From assembly GCA_963920665.1 (NCBI GenBank), contig OY987268.1:18540501-18604500 (forward strand): a stretch of DNA of 64,000 nucleotides. Reading direction: 5' to 3'. Below, piece by piece: positions 11,601 through 49,901 of this stretch (positions within the stretch are counted from its first letter, which is position 1; each line of letters opens with the position of its first letter). The DNA comes from Straminergon stramineum (taxonomy: Eukaryota; Streptophyta; Bryopsida; Hypnales; Calliergonaceae). The position numbers and the translations under genes were made by a program. The notes below the pieces were generated by a model. That model was not told the origin of the DNA. It saw only the letters and a list, made by a program, of their open reading frames with translations, and did no database searches.

Positions 11601-11614
11601 GAAGCGGCTACTAG

Positions 11615-12390
11615 TGGGGGGCGAGTTTAGGTTCTGGGCGACCGTGGGTGGGGGCTTGGTCTTCTGGCTTGGTGTTGTTGAGCCCAATTTGGTGGAATGG
11701 AGGGCGACTACGGGTAGGGGGCAAGTTCAGGTCTTAAGCGATCACGAGTGGGGGCTTGGACTTCTGGCTTGGTGTTGTTGAGCCCAATTTGGTGGAATGG
11801 GGGGCGACTGTAGGTAGGGGGCAAGTTCAGGTCCTAAGCGACCACGAGTGGGGGCTTGGACTTTTGGCTTGGTGTTGTGGAGCCCAATTTGGTGGAATGG
11901 GGGGCGACCGTGGGTGGGGGCTTGGTCTTCTGGCTTGGTGTTGTGGAGCCCAATTTGGTGGAATGGGGGGCGACCGCGGGTGGGGGCTTGGTCTTCTGGC
12001 TTGGTGTTGTGGAGCCCAATTTGGTGGAATGGGGGGCGACCGTGGGTGGGGGCTTGGTCTTCTGGCTTGGTGTTGTGGAGCCCAATTTGGTGGAATGGGG
12101 GGCGACCAGAGGTGGGGGCTTGGTCTTCGGGCTTGGTGTTGTTGAGCCCAATTTGGTGGAATCGAGGGCGACTACGGGTGGGAGGTGAGTTCAGGTCCTA
12201 AGCGACTACAAGTGGGGGCTTGGACTTCTGGCTTGGTGTTGTTTAGCCAATTTGGTGGAATGGGGGGCTACTGCAGGTGAGAGGCGAGTTCAGGTCTTGG
12301 GCGACCACGAGTGGAGGCTTGGTCTCTTGGCTTGATGTCGTTGAGCCCAATTTGGTGGAATGGGGGGCGACCGCAGGTAGGGGCTTGCCT
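11615..12390. repeat. GC-rich tandem array, 66-bp unit with longer variants
   Basis: At least nine units are present. The four central ones (from 11,904, 11,970 and 12,036 onward) are spaced exactly 66 bp and nearly identical. Each has GGGCGACCGTGGGTGGGGGC followed by a CTTGG-rich segment and CCCAATTTGGTGGAATGG. Outer units are about 100 bp because of an extra block with AAGTTCAGGTC and AGCGACCACGAGTGG. Because 66 is a multiple of three, long frames open on both strands, but they are by-products of the repeat. The core ACCGTGGGT is shared, in reverse complement, with the GC-rich leader arrays at 17.36, 20.46 and 27.7-28.06 kb. Confidence 0.9.
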
Positions 12391-34155: not shown

Positions 34156-35918
34156 CTAGTAGTGACAGCCGGAGCTCGCTCCTCCAGGACCACCAAAGAA
34201 GAAGTACGTCCCCCAATTGACATAATTGTTGAGCTGCACTTGGATATCATAACAAAGCGGATTGTTAAAAGTCCTGGCGGAGTTCAAGACTGTCGGCTCT
34301 GGGACGACACTCGTCCCACTAGCATCGAAGTAAGTAATGTTCCTCTGGTAGGCCGCCTTTGGGTAACCAGAAGCCGGAAAAGCCCCCGATCCCATCGCCG
34401 TCTTGGAGTGCGTCGTCTGCCCTGTCTGCACCGTAAACGCCACTTCCCCTCCCCACTGCACTTCATTACACGTCCCTTGCATGTACCCGTTCACGTAGAT
34501 CGACTTCGGCCAGTACCCGATCGCCTCGTTATTCAGGTACAACCACCAGTTTCCGGAAGTGGGGTTGTAGAGGACTTCGATGGTGACTTCGAACTCGGAG
34601 TTGGCGTTCTGGGCGAGGGTGGTGTAATGTGGCATGGCGCCCCCAATAACCCAGCTGTTGCTCTGTTGGACGAAGCCCGGGCACAAGAGGTTGTAGCAGG
34701 TGCCACCATGGGTGCCGGCGTAGGCGTCCTTCGTCCAGAAGATGAAGAGGTGCGGAGCGTCGGGGTTGTCGTTGGGGTGGAGAACGGGCTGCGTTTGCCA
34801 ACCGACTTCGATGGTGCTGAGACTGTTGTCGTTGTAACTGCCGTCCACGATCCAGAACTGAGAAAGGCTCATCTCGCTTTGGGAGCCCAGGGTGGGACCG
34901 TTCACGCTGAAGATCGATTTCGTTCCAGAGTAGGAGGACGCGACTTCCGGGATTCCTGCAAAGAATTCGCAACAATTTTCAGTTCAAAATTCCAATCTTG
35001 GGGACAATTGTGTACTGAACTGGAGTCAGTTCCAGCCCTGGAAATGTAAAGTCTCCATTCACCATGTATACACGGAGGGGTTCCTTGCACCGAACAGGTC
35101 TTCAAAGTACTTTGAGCCTTTCCCTTGCAATAGTCTGACAATCTAGAAACTTGAAAATTTGCGTCATCTAAAATTTTCCACTTTGATTTGGTGTTAGGCT
35201 AAAAATGAATTCCATGAAATCGAATGTCAATAGATGAAGCGTTTTCACACTTAGCACAAAATAATCAAATTAAATTCACCTGCATGGTCAGTGGAGCCTG
35301 TAATGTATGGCATGGTCAATGGAACCTCTACCTTAATTCTCAATTAATATCTGGGAATCGGGAACTCGAGAGGCCGAGCATGCCGTACGTACCTGTGACT
35401 GCGTACTCATGCTTTGACGTGTTCGCTGCCGGGTCCAGACTCTCGACGCTGCCGGGACCAGGTGCCCTCCTGAACACGGGCGGGGCCACCTTTTTCATGA
35501 ATTTGCCGCTGGGGTCGTCTCTGAGCACCGGAATGGTGCCTTCAGGGCATCCCCCATGCTCCCGTGCAAAGGCCTGGGGATGAGTCTCCGAAGGCCTTCG
35601 AGGTTCCCGAGACGGCGCCATTTGAATGACGTGGTCCTTGAGAGACGGATGGTGAGCCGCAATTTGGCCTTCAATAGGGATGCAGTCGACCCAACTTCCA
35701 TCAGACACCAGGAACGACTTCACTGGTGGCGCATGCCGGGCGTCGTTGCAGCCGGGATCAAAGTACGCTTGCAAGCGTACCCCCTTGGCACCTTGTTGCT
35801 CCTGCATCCGCCTGCTTGCTTGGGTTGAACCCACCATCATCACCAACACGATTGCGAACCAAAGTTTAGACGACGCCCCAGTTTTGCACCCCTGTTCGCC
35901 TCCTGGTGGAAAAGCCAT
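34156..35918 (-). CDS. Neprosin-family secreted peptidase, two exons
   Basis: Exon 1 spans 35,918-35,393 and exon 2 spans 34,955-34,156. The donor (CACAG|GTACGT) and acceptor (TTTGCAG|GAATCC) are canonical and keep the frame, giving 441 residues. There is a signal peptide (hydrophobic core LWFAIVLVMMVGSTQA, residues about 19-34), then the neprosin activation region (VKSFLVSDGSWVDCIPIEGQ, HPSLKDHVIQMAPS), then the neprosin domain (FWIVDGS, IEVGWQTQP, FIFWTKDAY, CYNLLCPGFVQ, WGGEV, TYFFFGGPGG). The two glutamates in IEVGW and WGGEV correspond to the catalytic pair described for neprosin glutamic peptidases. The gene looks intact, and its coding GC is well above the flanks. The protein probably acts in the apoplast; its substrate is unknown. 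Confidence 0.9.
34956..35392 (-). other. Intron of the neprosin gene
   Basis: A 437-bp intron with GTACGT donor and TTTGCAG acceptor. It is AT-rich compared with the exons, and the phase 1 junction is consistent on both sides. Confidence 0.85.
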
Positions 35919-36013
35919 CGCGCTAGGACTGTCAAGATTCTGAATTGAGAAGTGTAGTCCGTGCTAGTCTGGAGTATGCAATCAAGCTTACAACTGAGCC
36001 ATAATGATGGATG

Positions 36014-39684: not shown

Positions 39685-39690
39685 CATCGC
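39685..39690. repeat. Left 6-bp target-site duplication of the large transposon
   Basis: CATCGC, identical to 49,896-49,901. Confidence 0.85.
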
Positions 39691-39930
39691 TAGGGTGTAC
39701 CAAAACAGCCATGTTTTGTCTCCCCTCCAAAAGCACGGGTCACCCGCACTAGAGGCTGGGTCACCCACAGTGGAGGTTGGGTCACCCATGGTGGAGGCTG
39801 GGTCACCCATGGTGGAGGCTGGGTCACCCACGGTTTTCTCTCCACGCTTCTCAATTTGCCTCTCTTTCTCCTTTTCCCTCTCCTCTCCTCTTTTCGTAGA
39901 TTTGGTTTAGGGTTTTTTGATTTCCTTGCA
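39691..39930 (+). repeat. Left terminal inverted repeat
   Basis: It contains the outer TIR, 4.5 units of a 21-bp repeat (39,737-39,833) and a pyrimidine-rich tract ending CTTGCAACTTA. All have counterparts on the right in reverse complement. Confidence 0.85.
39737..39833 (+). repeat. 21-bp subterminal repeats, left
   Basis: Units start GGGTCACCCGCACTAGAGG, GGGTCACCCACAGTGGAGG, then GGGTCACCCATGGTGGAGG twice, and a partial GGGTCACCCACGG. They are regularly 21 bp long. Likely transposase-binding sites by position (inference). Confidence 0.85.
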
Positions 39931-40069
39931 ACTTAAGGAAGAGGGAGATAGGGCAAAAGAATTTGTTGCAGAAGGATACTACTGACAAGATTCTGCATTG
40001 CTTCTACATTCCTCAAGTGAAACGCTGCGTAGATCGTTCCATTCGAGCAAGCAAGTTGTGCAAGAAGAA

Positions 40070-40320
40070 CACAGGCTGTGCGAGGAAGAGAATGTAGGCT
40101 ATGTAGGGGGATTGTCGTTTTTTCAAAGGAGAGTGCACACAGTGCCAAGAAATTTCAGGTTGTGGCGAGGAGGGTGCCAGTTTCTCAAGGAGATTGCAAA
40201 TTGTGCACAGAGAGTGCAGGTTTTGCAAAGACAGTACAAGTTCTACACGGAGAGTGCTGATTTCGCAAGGAGATTGCTGGCTTGGCAAAGAGATCGATTG
40301 CATGTTGTGCACAAAGCTCT
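40070..40320 (+). repeat. Degenerate 20-21 bp array in the transposase leader
   Basis: Successive diverged units of 20-21 bp resemble TTTCGCAAGGAGATTGCTGG (also TTCTACACGGAGAGTGCTGA and TTTTGCAAAGACAGTACAAG). The array lies between the left TIR and the transposase start and explains the open frame there. Confidence 0.6.
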
Positions 40321-40642
40321 TCTTCTCTATGAATTTCACCATAATCCTCTTATAAAATGTAGTGCTGGTAGCAGCAAGGCAAGCCAAATGCAAGATGTTT
40401 TCCCCTACGGAGAGGGAGACAAATTAACCATATTAAGCCAACAAGGGCCGGGCTTCAAGTTGTTTACAGAAAATGCTTCTCCAATAAGTCTCTCCTCTGT
40501 TGGTAACAACCTCAACTCATAATGCCATTATGAAAATAATCCATTCTGAAATTAATCCATTCAACTTCTTGTTTCTGTCTCAATTGATGTTTTTGTTTTT
40601 AATTCTATTCTGATACTTCTTTGATGTAGAAGCTTCGAGGAG

Positions 40643-42311
40643 ATGGCTAATGAGAATGTGGAGCTGCCAAGGGCGGATTTGATTGAGTATGTACAGAAAA
40701 TGCTCAGTGAAGGGACTTCATTTAAACGGATAGCTGAGTCATTGAATATCTTTGATCCAAGGCAATTGAAACGAATGATGACAAAGGCTTTAGGATATGA
40801 ATTTCGAGTCTATCATCGCTTTACTGTAGAGGAGATATCTACCACAATTCAGGGTGCCCTTCCAATTGCAGAGCATGGGGCAAATTGGGGCATTCGGCAT
40901 GTGAAGGCTGCTCTTTCACGTTTGCATATTAGGGCGCCGAGGCGAAGTGTGGCTAGAGCCTTGCAAGTGATATCAGGTCCTTTCAAAATTCCATTGTCCT
41001 ATTTCAAGTAAATTTATGTGTTGGTTTTATAATTTGAACCAATTTTATTTTTTGTCTACAGAGGCTGACTACAACAAACGGATGAGAGCATTGCCCATTA
41101 TACGCCGACAATACAACGTTACAATTCCCATGGCCTTATGGCATATTGATTGTGAGTTACTTTTTGCCTATTTTATTGTTTTTTTCTTCAATAATTGGGT
41201 AAAGGTTATGCTTTAAGTCTATTTATAATATGTTTTAATTGGTGTCTTGTGCATTGAGATTCATTAAAAAAGTTAGGTTTCAAAATGTGTAGTTGCTACA
41301 AGGATTTAGCATTTTATGAAAACTAGTATGTAATCATATTTATTTACCATTGAGTTGTGGACACTTTAGTTATCACCATATTCTATTTCTTTTTGTAACA
41401 CATTATTCTTCCTTTTATGTGTAGCATATGATAAATTGTCCATGTTTGGGCTCCGAATTCATGGTTGCATCGACGGAGCTTCACATTATGTGCTATATGC
41501 ATGCATTGCATCAAACAAGACCCAAGAGACTCTTTTTGAACCCTTCTCTGCAGCTGTTCAAAAATTTGGTCCTCCTTTGCGAGTGAGGTCTGACTTTGCA
41601 GCAGAGCATGCTTTGATTAAGAGATATATGGAGGAGGTACGACTTGGGACTCGTAATCCATTTCTTGTGGGTTCCTCTGTGCACAACCAAAGAATTGAAC
41701 ATTGGTGGAGGTTATTGTGGGAGAAAGTTGTTTGGTATCATAAGAATGCCATTCAAGAAATGGTAGACCAGGGGTACTTCATTCCTGATGATCCTTATCA
41801 TAGAACTTCTTTCCAAGATGTCTACATCCCTATTTTACAAAAAATTATAAATGAGTGGATTGGTATTTGGAACCTTCACACAGTGCGACTAATCAATGAG
41901 CAAGGACGATTTCGTCCTTCACACGTGCCAACACAATATTTCCAAGAATATGAGCGTCTTCATGGATGGACGTCATTTATTGAGGACATGCATGGTGGGG
42001 ATATTCAAGAGAATATTGGTACCCAAGACTTAGGCCCACGTGGTTTACGGACATGGGTTGCACGAAGAAATCCCCCTGGTCTTACTTTATTCAACATTCC
42101 ACAGTTGCCGCCAAATCTCCTAGCCATTCGGGATGCTGCATATGAAGTAGGGAAGGTTAATAAGGATATTTTGCAATGTTTTCATTTACATTACTTTCTC
42201 TCTCACTATTGCTACTTATCTGCTGAAGGTGGCATGTCTCTCTTTCAACTTAATCGAATAGATCATTCAGCAGAAAGTATTGAAGCTTTTGAGTTGTTGG
42301 CTAGAATGTAG
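40643..42311 (+). CDS. DDE integrase-type transposase, three exons
   Basis: Exons 40,643-40,976, 41,062-41,151 and 41,425-42,311 join with canonical GT-AG introns, both in phase 1, into an uninterrupted 436-residue protein. The first about 110 residues hold a helix-turn-helix-like region (SFKRIAESLNI, WGIRHVKAALSRLHIRAPRR). The integrase fold follows: MALWHID (D141), SYDKLSMFGLRIHGCIDGAS, RSDFAAEHALI (D198), VHNQRIEHWWR (E233). D198 and E233 are 34 residues apart. The C-terminal part (IINEWIGIWNLHTVR and beyond) is typical of this integrase group. The WHID...K(L)...IHG.IDG signature matches eukaryotic integrase-like proteins of IS3EU-type transposons, as I remember them. It should cut and join the element's ends. 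No disabling change is visible. Confidence 0.88.
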
Positions 42312-44228
42312 CACTTATTAACCAGGTTTTGATGAACTTTCTCGTTACAGTGATATAAGTTTTGAAATTTTGGTTAATAAAAATTTGGAGAGGCAATTGT
42401 AGCCATCACACATTCAAGTGTTGGAGATTTGCTTTTAATTTATTCTTTAGATCTAGTTTGAAATGGATTTAGTTTGTAAGTGCATCCATTTTACTGTTCA
42501 TTTGAGAATAAAAATCAAAATATGATTTTTGATTTGATCAATTTCTCTAGGCTTCCTTTAAAATTCTTCCTCTTAAGATGTAAAGAGAATGTGTTCTAAG
42601 AAGAAGACTTTGGATGCCTCCCATTTTGTGTTTGTGTCTTCGAATGATCAAGGCTCTCTAGTCAGGCTGAGATTTAATAATCTTTAACACTTTAATATGA
42701 AGTTAAATGAACTTTAAATTTATATGAAGCTTAGGAGGTATTCAAAGTAAAACAGCATAGCTAAAAGTAATTCAATTCACTTTACTTTATTTAACTATTT
42801 TTTGAAAATTAAACTAGAACCAAAATTAAAAGGTTTATTTGTATTAACTACTAAAGTTTCATTTTAACTAGTGTGCCCCATGCAATTCCACTTTTGAGTT
42901 GTAGGTTAAAATGCCATAAAACAAAGCCCATGCACCCCTCCTTGTTGAGGGCTTTCCAACAATATGAAGAATACAATGGGGGGATGTATGGTCTAAGAGA
43001 TCTCAACATAAAAAACACAACAAACAAAAAAATAGCTTATCTAAAGGTATTAACGATTATTTTACTATATTATTTTAATATATTACTTAGATGTTTATTC
43101 TTTGTCTTTTCTATTAATTAATATGCAAGATATTTATGTAGAATGTATAACTATTAATAATTATTCTGCAAAATAATATATTATCTTAATATACATTCTC
43201 TTAGAATATTTGCAGAAAAATTGATTTAGAAAGAACTGAATGAATATTTAATAGTATTATATAATGACTTTTTAGTTATTAAGAAGAAGAAAAATAAGGC
43301 AATTGAAAGCAATTTTTACCAAATTGATTTGGATTTTGGCTTTGACTTAGATTTTGACTCCATCCAGTAAGGTTTATTTTTGAAAATAAAGTTTAATTGC
43401 CTTGAAGATATTGATAATCTCCTCAAAGACTACAATGAAGATTATAGTGTAAGTTCTACTTAATTTGGCCATCCTCAATTTTCTACTTAGAGCATCTCGA
43501 TATTTGCTTTTAATTTATCCCAACCAAAGAAAGACATTGTGTGTACTTTAAAACAATATGAAGTTCTTGAATGTGTTGACGTAATAAATGAGCTATCATT
43601 TATTTGGAGGGGTTGCATGATCTAGTTATAATTCCTTAATTTTCCATCCAAATTATATTGTGAAAGGTAGGTGTATTGTAGGCGATTTTATCTTTGCATC
43701 ATTTGTGAATGCCAAGTCGATAATGTCTAAGGTATGCCTTAATAATTGAATTCTCATCCACGTAGATGAAACTGCTAGGGTTTCAGGAGAGTTGTTTCTT
43801 TCACTATCTTGTGTTTGATACTTTCTTGTTTTTCTCACTTTCTGCTTCTATTGGAATTAGAGTTTGCTGATATTGTTTGTAGCTTGCATTGAAGCTTATT
43901 GAAGATAGTTGCAGCTTGGATCAACTGTTGAGGTTGTACGGATTCTTGGATATTTTGGTATCACAGGTACTTCCAGATTTTCTTTTGGGTTATTGTTGAT
44001 CTTGTGTAATTGGGTTTCTTGATTTGGTCTGTGTAATTTGGAAGAAGGTTCTAATGAACGGAATTCATGCTCGTGGTGATAATTTCATAATTACAGCTTC
44101 AATGTTATCTCTATTAAGTTGTCCTATGAGATGTATCTAGCTAATGCTGCTTCTTAATCTACGATACAAAATGTGCCAATCGATCAAGTTAGTTAAAAAC
44201 AAACATCAAGATTAGGAAATAAATGTGA
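42312..44228. other. AT-rich spacer inside the transposon
   Basis: About 1.9 kb between the two plus-strand genes. No coding frame is supported; it presumably holds the transposase 3' end and the promoter of gene 2. Confidence 0.5.
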
Positions 44229-44245
44229 ATGATCTTGTGTGGTAG

Positions 44246-47141
44246 ATGGAGAACCATGGAGATCCACTACCATCTACCTCACCAACTACACCAACAATAC
44301 CGGCTAGAATGTCAGTGTTTCCGAGGGCAATTGCAGATAGGGTTAGGGTATTCTCCTACCCACCAAAATTCGGCACACAAAGACAAAGAAGAGGATTGTC
44401 TTCGGTTCAAGCATCACCACCTACTCCAGCTCCTGCAACCGCCACCACTACTCGAGTTCTTGCAACTGCTGCCACTACTACTCGAGTTCTTGCAACTGCT
44501 GCCACTACTCAAGATCCAACAACATCAACCATGCCTAATGGATGTCAAGATCAGGCATCATCTTCAACTCAACTTGCTTCAATTTCTCCTGTTCCGAAAG
44601 CAACACAAAGATTCATTACATGAAGTTTTTTGGCAATGCCTGAGGGCACCCAATGGTCATCAGGTGTACCAAGCATCACACATTGGCCAACAAACTCACA
44701 GCATGTGTTAGCTTCTTTGGAAGATTCCAAGAGGTGGGCAGGGGTGACTTTCCCACAACCTTTTCCTCCAGATAGTGTGGAGTTTCATGTTGCAAAAGCA
44801 TTTGGAAGCCTTTCCCAACACCCAACTCATGAATATGGAATTTCTGGATCATTTTTCAAACGAACAAAGAAAAGAAAAGGAATTGGGCAGGATCGGGCTT
44901 ATAGATTGGAGCCCTATGTCCAAGAAGTAGGTGCAGTATACGGAAAATTGAATTCGAAAATTATGATTGTATACATGCCAGCTTCACAAGTTGATCTGCC
45001 TGCAATTGTTCAAACTTCAGTGCTGACATCATAGATTGTCTCTCCTCCAGTTGACCCGATTTCAATGTCAACTTCTGAGATTGCCTCAAGTGATCCAACT
45101 TTTGTACCCACAATGCAAATTGCTTCTCCTCCCATTGACCCAATTTCAATGTCAGCTTTTGAGATGGCCTCTGGTTTGCTTACAAATGGCCTTGAAATAC
45201 TGGATGAAGAGATGACAGAATTGGAAAGATTAGCAATTATTTGGGAGAGTTGCCATGTTGCTTACTATGAATCTATGGACTTCAAAGAGAAAATAGACAA
45301 ACGGGAGGCTTCAGCACGTACTTCTCAAGTTTTTTGGTCAGCATTTGAGGACTTATGTGAGAATATACTTCAGAGTTCAAATGGCGATGGAGAGGTCTTC
45401 AATGCATGTATGAACCTGCAGAAGCGAAGACAATTACAACGAGGGATATCAATGTCTAAAGCAACTCTTTCAAAACTTACACAGCACAATTCAATTGCAA
45501 TGTATAGTGACACAGATTTCAAAGTCGAGTTTGAACTTCAAGCAAGACGATTTTGGATGGACTGGGATTTGCTTGAGGCAGCAATTGAAAGATGCTTACC
45601 TAGTCGGGAGAAGGAGCATGCAAAGGCCTTTGTTGAGATTTACGGTGGACCAAATTTCAGGCAGACTGAACCTCCAACTGATGCAGATATTGAGAACTTC
45701 ATAAATAATGAAGCATTCTCTGCATTTACACTTCAACAGATTCAGAGAATGTGTTATCATGGTATAGATGGTCCTGAAGAGGAGATTGAGTTACTTGAGC
45801 AAAGGGAAAATGTGGATAAAGCTCTTCTTGCATACCAACGACTCTACATCTCATCACAAATATTTCAAACAATTCAGCACGCCTTAGGGTGCAAAAGAGC
45901 TACATCCATTGAGGTAATGGTTTGTTCTCATTTTTTAAATAATGTTCTAACTTTGCAAAAAAATAAATTCTTGATCATGACTTAATCAATCTTGTTTGTG
46001 GAAAGTGTAGGTTATACAAGGTAAAGAACTCCAAGCATTCACAAGACATTGGGACTGGATTTCGAGCACAAGAGAATACTTCTACAAGCCATCAGTGGAT
46101 TCAATCCATACCTTGGGTTTCAAGGAAACTGCAGTTGACCTCTGTGGGTTGACAAATTCGTGGTTGAGCAATTGCTGGAAGCAATTCTGGGGTAGCTCCT
46201 TCAACTACAATGCTATTTTTGAGTATCCAGATGACATGGCAGGGAAGATCCTTCACCCCAAGGTAGATGTTGCGATTGTCAGACCAGATATTCAACTTGA
46301 CTTGGCTCGCATGGTTGGACACTTGATTTATCTTCTTACATTACACGGCATTGAAGTGAACAGACCAGTTTCATTTGCAACACTTCTTATGCTTTGCAAT
46401 GAAGTGCCTAAATCAACAAATCTATCATCTTCAGTCTATCCAGATACTCGCCATGCATTGGAGAGGGACTTTCGCCGAGGTTGGGGAGCAACATGGTCCC
46501 TTCTAGTTCCTCTGAGGACTAGCTTCGAGTTTGCTACAAACTTGATCAAGGAATTACAGAATAATCAGCTAGGAGACCTTGGGTGGACATTCAATACTTT
46601 TACACTTGAAGAAGCAACCTGGGAACAACAGGTAGAAGACAAGATAGGAAGCATCATATACAGTCACCTTTTCAATGGCAAACTCGAAATTGGAAAAGCA
46701 ATGTGGGAGGGCTTTTACCTTGCAGTTGAACATGCGGACACTTCTGTTTTGGAGAAGCAAAGGATGACGGAGTCTTTAGACACCCTTACAGCAGATACTT
46801 TGCGTGTTATCTTCAGTGCCAAAAATGCTATGGAAGCATCTGAGTTCCTCGCCATGTGCACTTTTTCTAGCGCAATTCCCAAAAATTTGGAAGACATGTT
46901 CAGAGCATGTGTTCATAAAATGACATATAGTGAAAGGTCAAGACTTGCTATTTTCATCACAGGGAACGAGTATTTCGGAGGAAAGATAGTCAGTATTGAA
47001 TTTCTGGATAGGACAGATGACCCTCTCATCTCATCATCAACATGCTTCGAGAAGCTACATCTTCCATTATACAAGGACATCGACACAATGCACCGAAAAA
47101 TATGCTACAGTATCATGGATAGATCATTTGGTAATATGTGA
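44246..47141 (+). pseudogene. Transposon gene 2: HECT-type E3 ubiquitin ligase-like protein, two premature stops
   Basis: Exon 1 (44,246-45,913) and exon 2 (46,011-47,141) join in phase 0 (GAG|GTAATG and GTGTAG|GTTATA) into 933 codons. Two stops interrupt the frame: TGA at 44,621 (codon 126) and TAG at 45,032 (codon 263). Residues 1-130 are Pro/Thr/Ser-rich with a repeated ATTTRVLATA unit. A repeat containing PPVDPISMS / PPIDPISMS follows at about 265-295, then a long helical region. The last about 170 residues match a HECT C-lobe: SRLAIFITGNEYFGG, then SSTCFEKLHLPLY with the catalytic Cys (codon 901) about 30 residues from the end, and a final SFGNM. HECT enzymes pass ubiquitin from a thioester on this Cys. 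The N-lobe is diverged and not certain. With both stops the full protein could not be made, unless initiation is internal (45,065 onward gives a 600-codon frame with the HECT part). Confidence 0.7.
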
Positions 47142-48060
47142 CAATTTGGAGAGAAATAGAGAAGCTTACAATGTTACCAAACATTGAGATAACACGGAGG
47201 TGGCTTACAATTTGATGGCCTTGCTAATATCACGGTTGTTCCCCAAGGCACCACAATTAAGCTTCTCTGGTACAGATCTTTCTCCCATAAATTGCAAAAT
47301 GCTGTCAATAAAGCAGTTAACTCACAACAATTGCGACATTTTGTTTCTTGCCTTTCTGTCTATTTGATTCATTTGCAACCACTAGCTATCCAATTGGCTC
47401 CCTTCCTAAGGATGACAAAGGTGGAAAAAGATATAATACCCTTTCTTCTGGTTTAGTCTTGACACCAGTAGGCAGCTTCTTCAAAGGGGTGACATCACTT
47501 TAGAGTGGTTTAATGTCAGCATAGTATACTACACCTGCGGAATCTCCATTTTGGTTTGGCAGATTAACCTCTTTAAATAACCTCTTTAACCGTTTTAATT
47601 TCTATCTTCACACATAAGCATGACCAAAAAATAATACTGAACTGTTAGAGAATCAGACCTAAGTCCTGAGTTCAACAATTTCCGACTCCTTCGCCAAATT
47701 GTTATCTGCTCAAAACGAGTGACTTATGAGGAATGTAGCAATCGTGGAAGAAATCGTTGTTCAACCCTAAGTAAAAAAAAGCAAGTCCATAGGACTAAGG
47801 AGTTGTCAACCTTGGTCACATCGTCACAACCACTGCCCATCTCCAAACGAAAAATATCAGAATCTCTAAGTCCAAAAATGCCAATATATTTACATTGGAT
47901 TTCTGACTATAGGCATCAGGTCAAGCATACTTGAGATGCACGGCATACATAAAGGATGCAGCAAACATTGATGGTGACTGCTTAAAGAAGAATTCATTAG
48001 ACTAGTTTCATTTCAAATTGAATATTATGCTATCAGACATGAGCTCACAAGACGGGATGT
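47142..48060. other. Transposon interior, no clear gene
   Basis: On the minus strand, about 47,380-47,500 has a short protein-like stretch (KLPTGVKTKPEERVLYLF), which may be the tail of the minus-strand segment described next. Otherwise nothing recognisable. Confidence 0.35.
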
Positions 48061-48067
48061 ACATTTA

Positions 48068-49074
48068 CTAATCCAAATTCAGAGCTCCTTCGCTGGTACA
48101 ATGTGACACTGATCGGAACTGTGCAATATGAACGTCCAATTTCACTTTCTCACCTGCTTTGAAAAGTTTGCAAGTCCCTAGAGACACAAGAAATGTCATT
48201 TCCCCATTTCGAACTCGACCTCCGGACACCTGGTGCGACTTGAGTGTCTCCGGGTTGCCGATTGTCTTCCGAAGAGATCTGAGAAAAGGACATTCGAAGT
48301 GAAGCGGAAGCACCAGATTCCGTTGATTCTACTCCAGATCCTTCCTCTTCTGACAAAGCAGCAGCTTCCAAATTTTGGCTCTCATCTAAGGAACGTTCCT
48401 AAGCCATCCCAACACTCGTTTCTTCCATGGTTATCCCAAAACCCCGTCCGAATTCTCTTTGGACCTCCCTAAATTTTTGCTCCGAGAAAAGCTTACAGAC
48501 AATGGATCAAAGGCGCCCATACTGTCGTCAGCCTCTACATCGCTCTTGTCGAGATCCGAGGGTTTAAGGTCAAAGGAAGTAGCTACAGCAGGTGCAAATG
48601 CAGGGGTTTCTTCTTGAGACGCTGAATAATCCGACCACCTCTCAATAGCATTCCCAGTTTCACTACCGCGGATGCATTGCGTGAGTTTGTTCAACTCCAG
48701 TACTTGCTCATTCCATGTGGACACTACCTCGTTCACCGAATTTTGAATTTTGACTTCTCCTCGCTCCGAGGCTCCGTCCTCTGTTCCAGATTCTAGGTCA
48801 AGGTGGTTGGAATGTTGCCACCCAATCTGAAGCTCGACGTCAGGGTTGGATGCATGCGAGAAAACACTACGATCAGCAAGCACGAGCCAATCGGCGAGGA
48901 ACGATACGAATATGTGATGTTGCCGCTGCATCTTTCTTCCTGAAAATTCGAAACCGCCCCCGACAGCTGCCACCTCGGGAAAGGAAGAGCGCAAGGGTTG
49001 TCCTTCATCCTTAAATTAAGTACGCAACTATTGAAGGCGCACCAGCACAGCACCATCGCCGCGGGGGCCACCAT
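48068..49074 (-). pseudogene. GC-richer minus-strand coding-like segment of the transposon
   Basis: The minus-strand frame 48,994-48,431 (MRSSFPEVAAVGGG, later NEVVSTWNEQVLELNKLTQ) is 187 codons. It has a GTAAGC donor-like site after GAFDPLS near 48,495. A second frame (48,371-48,150) is Ser/Glu-rich, flanked by an AG acceptor and a GTGAG donor, but its phase does not join cleanly to the first. Base composition is richer in GC than the rest of the element interior. No domain is recognised. It may be a third transposon gene read inward from the right end, or a piece of captured host gene that has decayed. Confidence 0.3.
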
Positions 49075-49466
49075 AGCGCAACAATCCTCACTTGGGACCG
49101 TCTCGCTAACTAAGCTTCAGACAGGCAATTCAGTTACGAAAGAGGCGGGCAACGGCAACACAACACCTAAACACTGGAGGAAATGCTACAATACGTCGAC
49201 TTCTAATAACTTAAGCTTGAGCTAATTGTTGATCCGTGCAAGCCAACGAGACTCTCATCGGTCATGTTTGTCTATCTAGGACACACAAAATGAGTAATTG
49301 GGATAACTGAATGAGGAGAAGCTTGGATTCTGCAGCTGTGACTTCATTTCAACAGCTTGGAAATTTCCAACAACATTCCAGGAAGCGAAGCTGAATTCTC
49401 AGAAGTGCCAAAGTCGTTAGTTTTGTAGAAATTCGAAAGTGGCACTATACCCACGCTAGAACTTGG

Positions 49467-49895
49467 TAAGTTGCAAGAAAACCACAAAACCCTAAACCAA
49501 GTCCACAAAAGGAGAAGAGGAGAAGACAGGGAGAAGGAGAAGCAAATCGAGATGCGCAGAGAGAAAAGTAGATTGCCGTAGCCATCAAGCAGCAGCGACA
49601 AAACCCTAAATCAAATCAGAAAACCTCGTTGTGAACACAACAACAAGCAAAAAGGGAAGCGGATGACGCAAAGTGCTGTAGTGTAAATTCCAACAGCTCC
49701 TCGAATGAATGAAAAAAGCGCTAATGGATGATAAAATCCGGCGGGCAGATTGAAATTTTGAAGGTACCATGGAGCACGGGTGGCCCAGCCTCCACCGTGG
49801 GTGACCTAGCCTCCACCGAGGGTGACCCAACCTCTAGTGCGGGTGACCCGTGCTTTTGGAGGGGAGACTGAACATGGCTCTTTTGGTACACCCTA
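49467..49895 (-). repeat. Right terminal inverted repeat
   Basis: Reverse complement of the left end: outer TIR at 49,820-49,895, 21-bp repeats at 49,776-49,849, and the pyrimidine-rich block (here purine-rich) at 49,467-49,575. The right arm has about 195 extra bp (49,580-49,775) between the repeats and the inner block. Confidence 0.8.
49776..49849 (-). repeat. 21-bp subterminal repeats, right
   Basis: About 3.6 units in reverse complement of the left array, each with GGTGACC followed by (T/C)(A/A)GCCTCCACCG(T/A)G-type sequence. Confidence 0.8.
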
Positions 49896-49901
49896 CATCG
49901 C
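49896..49901. repeat. Right 6-bp target-site duplication of the large transposon
   Basis: CATCGC, identical to the left flank. Confidence 0.85.

Follow-up and report, generated by a model that had tools for sequence, protein, structure and literature searches.

A moss DNA transposon of the IS3EU/GingerRoot type from a lineage that probably carries its own HECT-type ubiquitin-ligase gene

The window analyzed here, a stretch of 64,000 nucleotides from the moss Straminergon stramineum (assembly GCA_963920665.1, contig OY987268.1, positions 18,540,501 to 18,604,500), contains a 10.2-kb element that is read, with a probability of roughly 0.87, as a cut-and-paste DNA transposon of the IS3EU/GingerRoot type, from a lineage that carries its own HECT gene. 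The novelty lies in this HECT partner gene; the element alone, as a plant IS3EU, is ordinary. A preliminary description of the same DNA had reported a complete IS3EU-type element with an intact transposase in a plant, and both claims were borne out; the HECT gene, a patchwork of captured DNA and a Tet-like oxygenase gene in a sister family were all missing from it. Genome searches covered the 326-Mb assembly of 59 contigs, in which the window lies on contig C6.

The element occupies positions 39691-49895 (10,205 bp), its ends reading TAGGGTGTACC...GGTACACCCTA with TA..TA termini. Both ends were found, with the following features:

39685..39690 (left) and 49896..49901 (right): target-site duplications CATCGC, exact match
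39691..39811 (+): left terminal inverted repeat (TIR), starting TAGGGTGTACCAAAA
49775..49895 (-): right terminal inverted repeat, partner of the left arm
39834..39935 (+) and 49467..49567 (-): subterminal inverted repeat pair, 82% alike
39737..39831: 21-bp units, left, 4.5 copies, containing GGGTCACCC
49778..49849: 21-bp units, right, 3.4 copies

The two TIR arms, of 121 bp each, are identical at 110 of 121 positions (91%). Therefore, the ends are not near-identical, as had first been thought, and recent movement cannot be read from them; a pair of short copies, 99% identical to each other, is better evidence for it. The subterminal pair is offset by additional sequence in the right end. The 21-bp units, arranged head-to-tail in the inverted repeats and carrying GGGTSACCC, are proposed as transposase-binding sites.

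The transposase gene is encoded in three exons separated by GT..AG introns:

40643..40976 (+): transposase exon 1
41062..41151 (+): transposase exon 2, with the first catalytic D
41425..42311 (+): transposase exon 3, with the second D and the E

The spliced frame is open over 436 aa, and the catalytic triad D141, D198 and E233 is intact, with spacings of 56 and 34. The best Pfam family was rva_4 (PF24764, E 3.5e-41), which we infer to be the IS3EU domain, and rve matched at E 3.2e-4, under the Pfam cut-off. The HHCC motif upstream of the core is absent, since there is no Cys in residues 1-131 and Pfam lists no zinc-binding integrase domain. Among NCBIfam models, IS481 (E 6.8e-9, 35.6 bits against a cut-off of 224) and IS3 (E 0.011, 15 bits against 160) point to a distant relationship with the transposases of these bacterial insertion sequences; unlike them, the window element has introns, long repeats and accessory genes. 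No relative of the transposase was found among solved structures at E <= 1, nor in viral contigs among 39 pattern matches. The closest plant-named relative was a Ceratodon purpureus protein, 85% identical over 38% of the transposase. The Ceratodon purpureus relative P0023 (KC19_VG294400) sits on a 110-Mb contig, and its locus name suggests the V sex chromosome.

The tree called for in the preliminary description was built from 28 rows, 24 of them rva_4 relatives and 4 bacterial (two annotated IS3), without named entries for IS3EU, Ginger or GingerRoot, or any other from Repbase. The window transposase grouped with 8 other plant rows (lineage A, 9 rows, support 100/99), and the 24 rva_4 rows stood apart from the 4 bacterial ones (100/100). 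A second plant lineage, B, comprises two rows (100/98) and joins A at 100/99. Row P0013 is long-branched and of unsure placement, and the animal rows do not form one clade. IS3EU is present in animals, and the relatives with the same Pfam domain include those of the fish Austrofundulus, Fundulus and Poecilia, the coral Dendronephthya and the beetle Pyrocoelia.

PMC10045372 describes complete IS3EU families with TA..TA termini, usually 6-bp duplications and no HHCC motif, and GingerRoot from Selaginella lepidophylla with mostly TA..TA termini and 6-bp duplications; there the two form one lineage with 99% bootstrap, and Kojima 2023 merges GingerRoot with IS3EU. By these descriptions, the window element resembles IS3EU in termini, duplication length and lack of the HHCC motif, and GingerRoot in its integrase-like DDE transposase, termini, duplications and early land plant host. 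On domain, termini and duplications, rather than by comparison with named members, the element is assigned as an IS3EU/GingerRoot transposon, and its transposase makes it a new member of a known superfamily. An extension of the superfamily's range to plants, suggested at first, does not follow because GingerRoot, from a clubmoss, is already a plant member.

Following the transposase, the element carries the HECT gene:

44246..45913 (+): HECT-protein gene, N-terminal exon region, with in-frame stops at 44621-44623 and 45032-45034
46011..47141 (+): HECT-protein gene, HECT-domain exon, with a catalytic-type Cys codon at 47043-47045

Positions 46011-47138 matched Pfam HECT with E 2.5e-12 (47.5 bits, cut-off 23.9) over profile positions 172-303 of 306. 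This is the later half of the domain, mostly the C-lobe, in which the Cys aligns with the cysteines of the HERC5 and UBR5 chains, and ubiquitin-ligase activity is predicted. Since the frames 44246-44620, 44624-45031 and 45035-45913 all match in order on contigs C9 and C3, they were assigned to the same gene, whose N-terminal and HECT parts recur jointly on both contigs. The Pfam HECT domain was also recognized on C4 (E 8.9e-12), on C9 (E 1.6e-6) and at C6:12527642 (E 9.7e-9). No homologue of the HECT gene was obtained from the protein database at E <= 0.001 among 7,595 candidates, a search restricted by word sharing and by length, from whose negative outcome little can be concluded.

The association with transposases was examined genome-wide, with 26 transposase matches grouped manually into 11 loci and 11 HECT matches into 8 loci. 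Six of the 8 HECT loci have a transposase locus on the same strand at a distance of 3.8 to 17.3 kb; the chance of at least six falling within 20 kb is about 3e-18 for random placement, uncorrected for shared descent. At every one of the ten transposase loci other than the window's, the tool counted one or more stops within a matched stretch, and one stretch of the C4 transposase (stops as X, frame unchecked) had no Pfam match.

Two of these loci are long relatives on different chromosomes, with ends similar to those of the window element and the same gene order. The first, C9:1027965-1051405, has 23,441 bp and flanks CCCGGC/CCCAGC (5/6 bases), and the second, C6:12515116-12529854, has 14,739 bp and flanks GGGGTC/GTGGTT (4/6). 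Starting at the left end, 12.5 kb of the two align at 95.6% identity, and sequence near the right end aligns at 92.6-95.7%; a large internal part of the C9 relative is missing from the C6 relative. The C6 relative has TATGG instead of TAGGG at the start of its two ends, and the C9 relative has it at the left one. Their transposases, both with stops, are 58 to 81% identical to the window one, exon by exon. An additional intron of about 100 bp seems to split the third transposase exon in both relatives, and the window copy is without it.

Searching with the TIR gave 17 genome matches: two from this element, six from the ends of three short copies and nine others. The short copies, of 1,696, 1,672 and 1,672 bp, have the exact 6-bp duplications CCCAAG, CATGGT and CCCACC. 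Two of them share 99.0% identity, and the third reaches 96.5-96.7% with either. By blastn at E 1e-5, their similarity to the window element is confined to the ends and a single 178-bp stretch and includes none of its genes:

49276..49452: element segment common to the three short copies, 90-92% identical

Among the six elements with both ends found, the duplication is exact in four, with 5/6 matching bases in one and 4/6 in another; the 6-bp duplications looked for in other copies were therefore exact in the three short ones and imperfect in the two long relatives. Because different exact 6-bp duplications flank three further elements that share these ends, that of the window element is more than chance. 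The exact duplications start with CAT or CCC, as does the C9 one (CCC), and that of the C6 relative does not; this may reflect a target preference. Of the nine other TIR matches, the one on C9 could be extended to a full element, the C9 relative, and eight were viewed only in stretches of 2.3-3.3 kb. In four of these eight (L016, L019, L021 and L023), a weak second TIR match was seen in inverse orientation. Since L016 and L019 start with AAGGG instead of TAGGG and have the sequence outside the end in common, they may sit inside a larger repeat.

The lineage-B transposase is also accompanied by a HECT gene. C1:5630056-5647194 and C7:18618353-18635476 are 17.2-kb copies, 95.3% identical, with both genes; no inverted repeat longer than 15 bp was found at their ends. 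At the C4 locus, no TA pair with 17/24 matching bases and 5/6 duplication bases was found in the stretches searched. An open frame of 563 codons (L047:3523-5211, minus strand) is located upstream of the HECT gene region of C4, at a distance of over 5 kb; its DNA is matched in C1 and, partly, C7 at 85-86%, and it gave no significant Pfam match (zf-RING_5, E 0.09).

Divergence was compared for both genes. The transposase gave Ka of 0.16 and Ks of 0.86-0.96 (Ka/Ks 0.17-0.18). For the HECT exon, pN was 0.39-0.40 against pS of 0.79-0.82, and for the N-terminal block nt2, Ka was 0.26-0.30 against Ks of 1.6-1.9, while the other N-terminal parts were less constrained (nt1, pN 0.40-0.43 and pS 0.68; nt3, pN 0.51-0.53 and pS 0.76-0.81). 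This shows that most of the HECT gene is under purifying selection between families. The gene is conserved as a protein in part, and it diverges faster than the transposase, synonymous sites included.

Beyond the plants, four loci with relatives came from scanning genome contigs, all in contigs assigned to symbionts of Poecilosclerida or Iophon, which are sponges. Since their transposases are of eukaryotic type with intron-like breaks, these loci were considered to be sponge DNA, and the L003 contig is probably from a sponge. In L003, a HECT frame (E 1.5e-6) is convergent with an rva_4 frame (E 1.4e-75) at a distance of about 185 bp. In L001, L002 and L004, which are short contigs of 3.4-4.2 kb with only three frames scanned with Pfam, no HECT frame was recognized, and the test for TA ends and duplications gave no element ends for L003 in two stretches. 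A profile of four moss HECT pieces aligned with L003 in the C-lobe (E 0.0031, probability 10%); the MAFFT alignment of the window HECT with L003 was poor, and plain BLASTP gave no match.

In addition, a Tet-like gene was found in the sister family. The C6 relative has an open minus-strand frame of 376 codons (C6:12526434-12527561; L043:4435-5562) between the transposase and a HECT remnant, matching PF20515, Tet-like 2OG-Fe(II) oxygenase, with E 9.1e-48. The C9 relative carries the gene at C9:1039197-1040324 (minus strand, 91%, one stop), likewise between transposase and HECT, and a third locus, C3:26493137-26494261 (minus strand, 87%, with stops), lies near the transposase at C3:26488875 and a TIR at C3:26484945. 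In these relatives, the Tet-like gene stands on the strand opposite to the transposase. With 93 genome matches in all, it is not confined to these elements; none was found in the window copy, and no relative of the protein was found among solved structures at E <= 10. According to PMC12730594, TET-positive IS3EU elements occur in rust fungi and a truffle, with a TET/JBP gene between the transposase and an alpha-kinase gene. The position between the transposase and a second accessory gene is thus the same in the moss relatives, the second gene being HECT instead of an alpha-kinase.

The right-hand part of the window element, 47168-49277, is made up of patches with matches at three unlinked loci:

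47168..47575: captured fragment, 87% to C6:1408324-1408731
47592..47772: captured fragment, 92% to C5:3805577-3805759
47821..48007: captured fragment, 92% to C2:342133-342320
48010..49277 (-): captured fragment, 84-85% to C2:342527 onward

The whole C2 part aligns window 47821-49277 with C2:342133-343882 at 84-92%, and it also matches C2:59999-60966 more weakly (64-82%). A minus-strand frame that is open over 313 codons on C2 is split into smaller frames in the window. The patches are probably captures into the element, and their matches to three unlinked loci would fit a gene-capturing transposon. GingerRoot, described by Cerbin et al. in 2019, reportedly has inverted repeats of 100-150 bp and captured gene fragments and occurs in bryophytes and lycophytes; the captured fragments of the window element would be a further likeness.

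Several observations weigh against a HECT gene belonging to the transposon lineage. The gene is broken in the window copy by the two in-frame stops, and stops also occur on C9 and C3; the C9 frame is continuous through both stop regions of the window copy, yet has stops of its own, and none of the HECT copies seen proved complete. Gene order varies, with the transposase before HECT in this element, C9 and C6, HECT before the transposase in C1, C4 and C7, and the convergent arrangement in L003. No transposase lies close to the HECT loci C3:26810791 and C5:12444019, and 5 of the 11 transposase loci are without a neighboring HECT match. Since C9/C6 and C1/C7 are near-copy pairs, the association amounts to about four independent cases, in two transposase lineages. 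In addition, because the order differs and synonymous sites have diverged more in HECT than in the transposase, the gene may have been exchanged between families or acquired more than once. Comparing the N-terminal regions of moss lineages A and B and of L003 by hhalign gave no convincing match, with E values of 0.26, 0.19 and 0.021, of which the second and third span just 4 and 9 columns. The predicted structure of the HECT exon had a mean pLDDT of only 33, and the comparison included no named IS3EU or GingerRoot sequence.

Capture could also explain the HECT gene itself, as a host gene fragment without a role in the element, since the element does hold captured-looking DNA and its HECT frame has the two stops. 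This is unlikely: the captured patches match their loci at 84-92% identity, and there is no such donor among the 10 other genome matches of HECT, which are 24-60% identical (60% over 35 residues). Moreover, the six HECT loci near IS3EU-type transposases include the window one, the gene is under purifying selection between families, and two moss lineages as well as L003 have it next to a transposase.

Slightly less probable still is that segmental duplication or nested insertion, rather than one mobile unit, brought HECT and transposase together. The C1/C7 copies, with both genes and without recognizable inverted repeats, would suit this explanation. Against it, HECT is enclosed in the window and on C9 by an inverted-repeat pair flanked by 6-bp duplications (exact and 5/6, respectively), the HECT remnant of the C6 relative is likewise between repeats, and order and strand of both genes are alike in the three.

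Membership in another integrase-type superfamily (Ginger1, Ginger2 or Polinton) is very improbable: the rve match shows distant relatedness to integrases, and 6-bp duplications without an HHCC motif are also found in Polinton, so that neither excludes it, but duplications have 4 bp in Ginger1 and 4 or 5 bp in Ginger2 (PMC10045372), the best family is rva_4 and the termini are TA..TA. Polinton carries polymerase and capsid genes, and no polymerase or capsid domain was found in the six element proteins and one extra frame scanned with Pfam, which are part of the frames.

For the preferred reading of a transposon lineage with its own HECT gene, a mechanism can be outlined from what is typical of the family. 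The rva_4 DDE transposase would bind to the 21-bp units of the inverted repeats and cleave at the TA termini; insertion of the element into staggered target DNA would then leave 6-bp duplications. The HECT gene, long retained by the lineage, would travel with the element, and its product might, most plausibly, affect how stable the transposase or the silencing or repair proteins of the host are. Since HECT is broken in the window copy, this copy may move by its own transposase, with HECT help from elsewhere.

A wider scheme is tentative and rather doubtful at present. Plant and animal IS3EU/GingerRoot elements might share the HECT partner, by ancient or repeated gain, with some moss families adding the Tet-like oxygenase, and the pair could work together against silencing, with the oxygenase acting on methylated DNA of the transposon and the ligase on silencing proteins or the transposase. 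The literature searched contained no report of a HECT gene in IS3EU or, judged by title, in another transposon, although the original GingerRoot description was outside the search and may report some, and none of Tet-like genes in moss transposons.

Elsewhere in the window, a neprosin domain and a neprosin activation peptide were recognized in two neighboring open frames at 34156-35963 (minus strand), and tandem repeats at 11604-12387 leave both strands open over 135-151 codons.

A ubiquitin ligase carried on a transposon of this kind would offer a way to study how such elements deal with the proteins of their host. The Tet-like gene in plant transposons parallels the report from fungal ones, and mosses are transformable and assayable.

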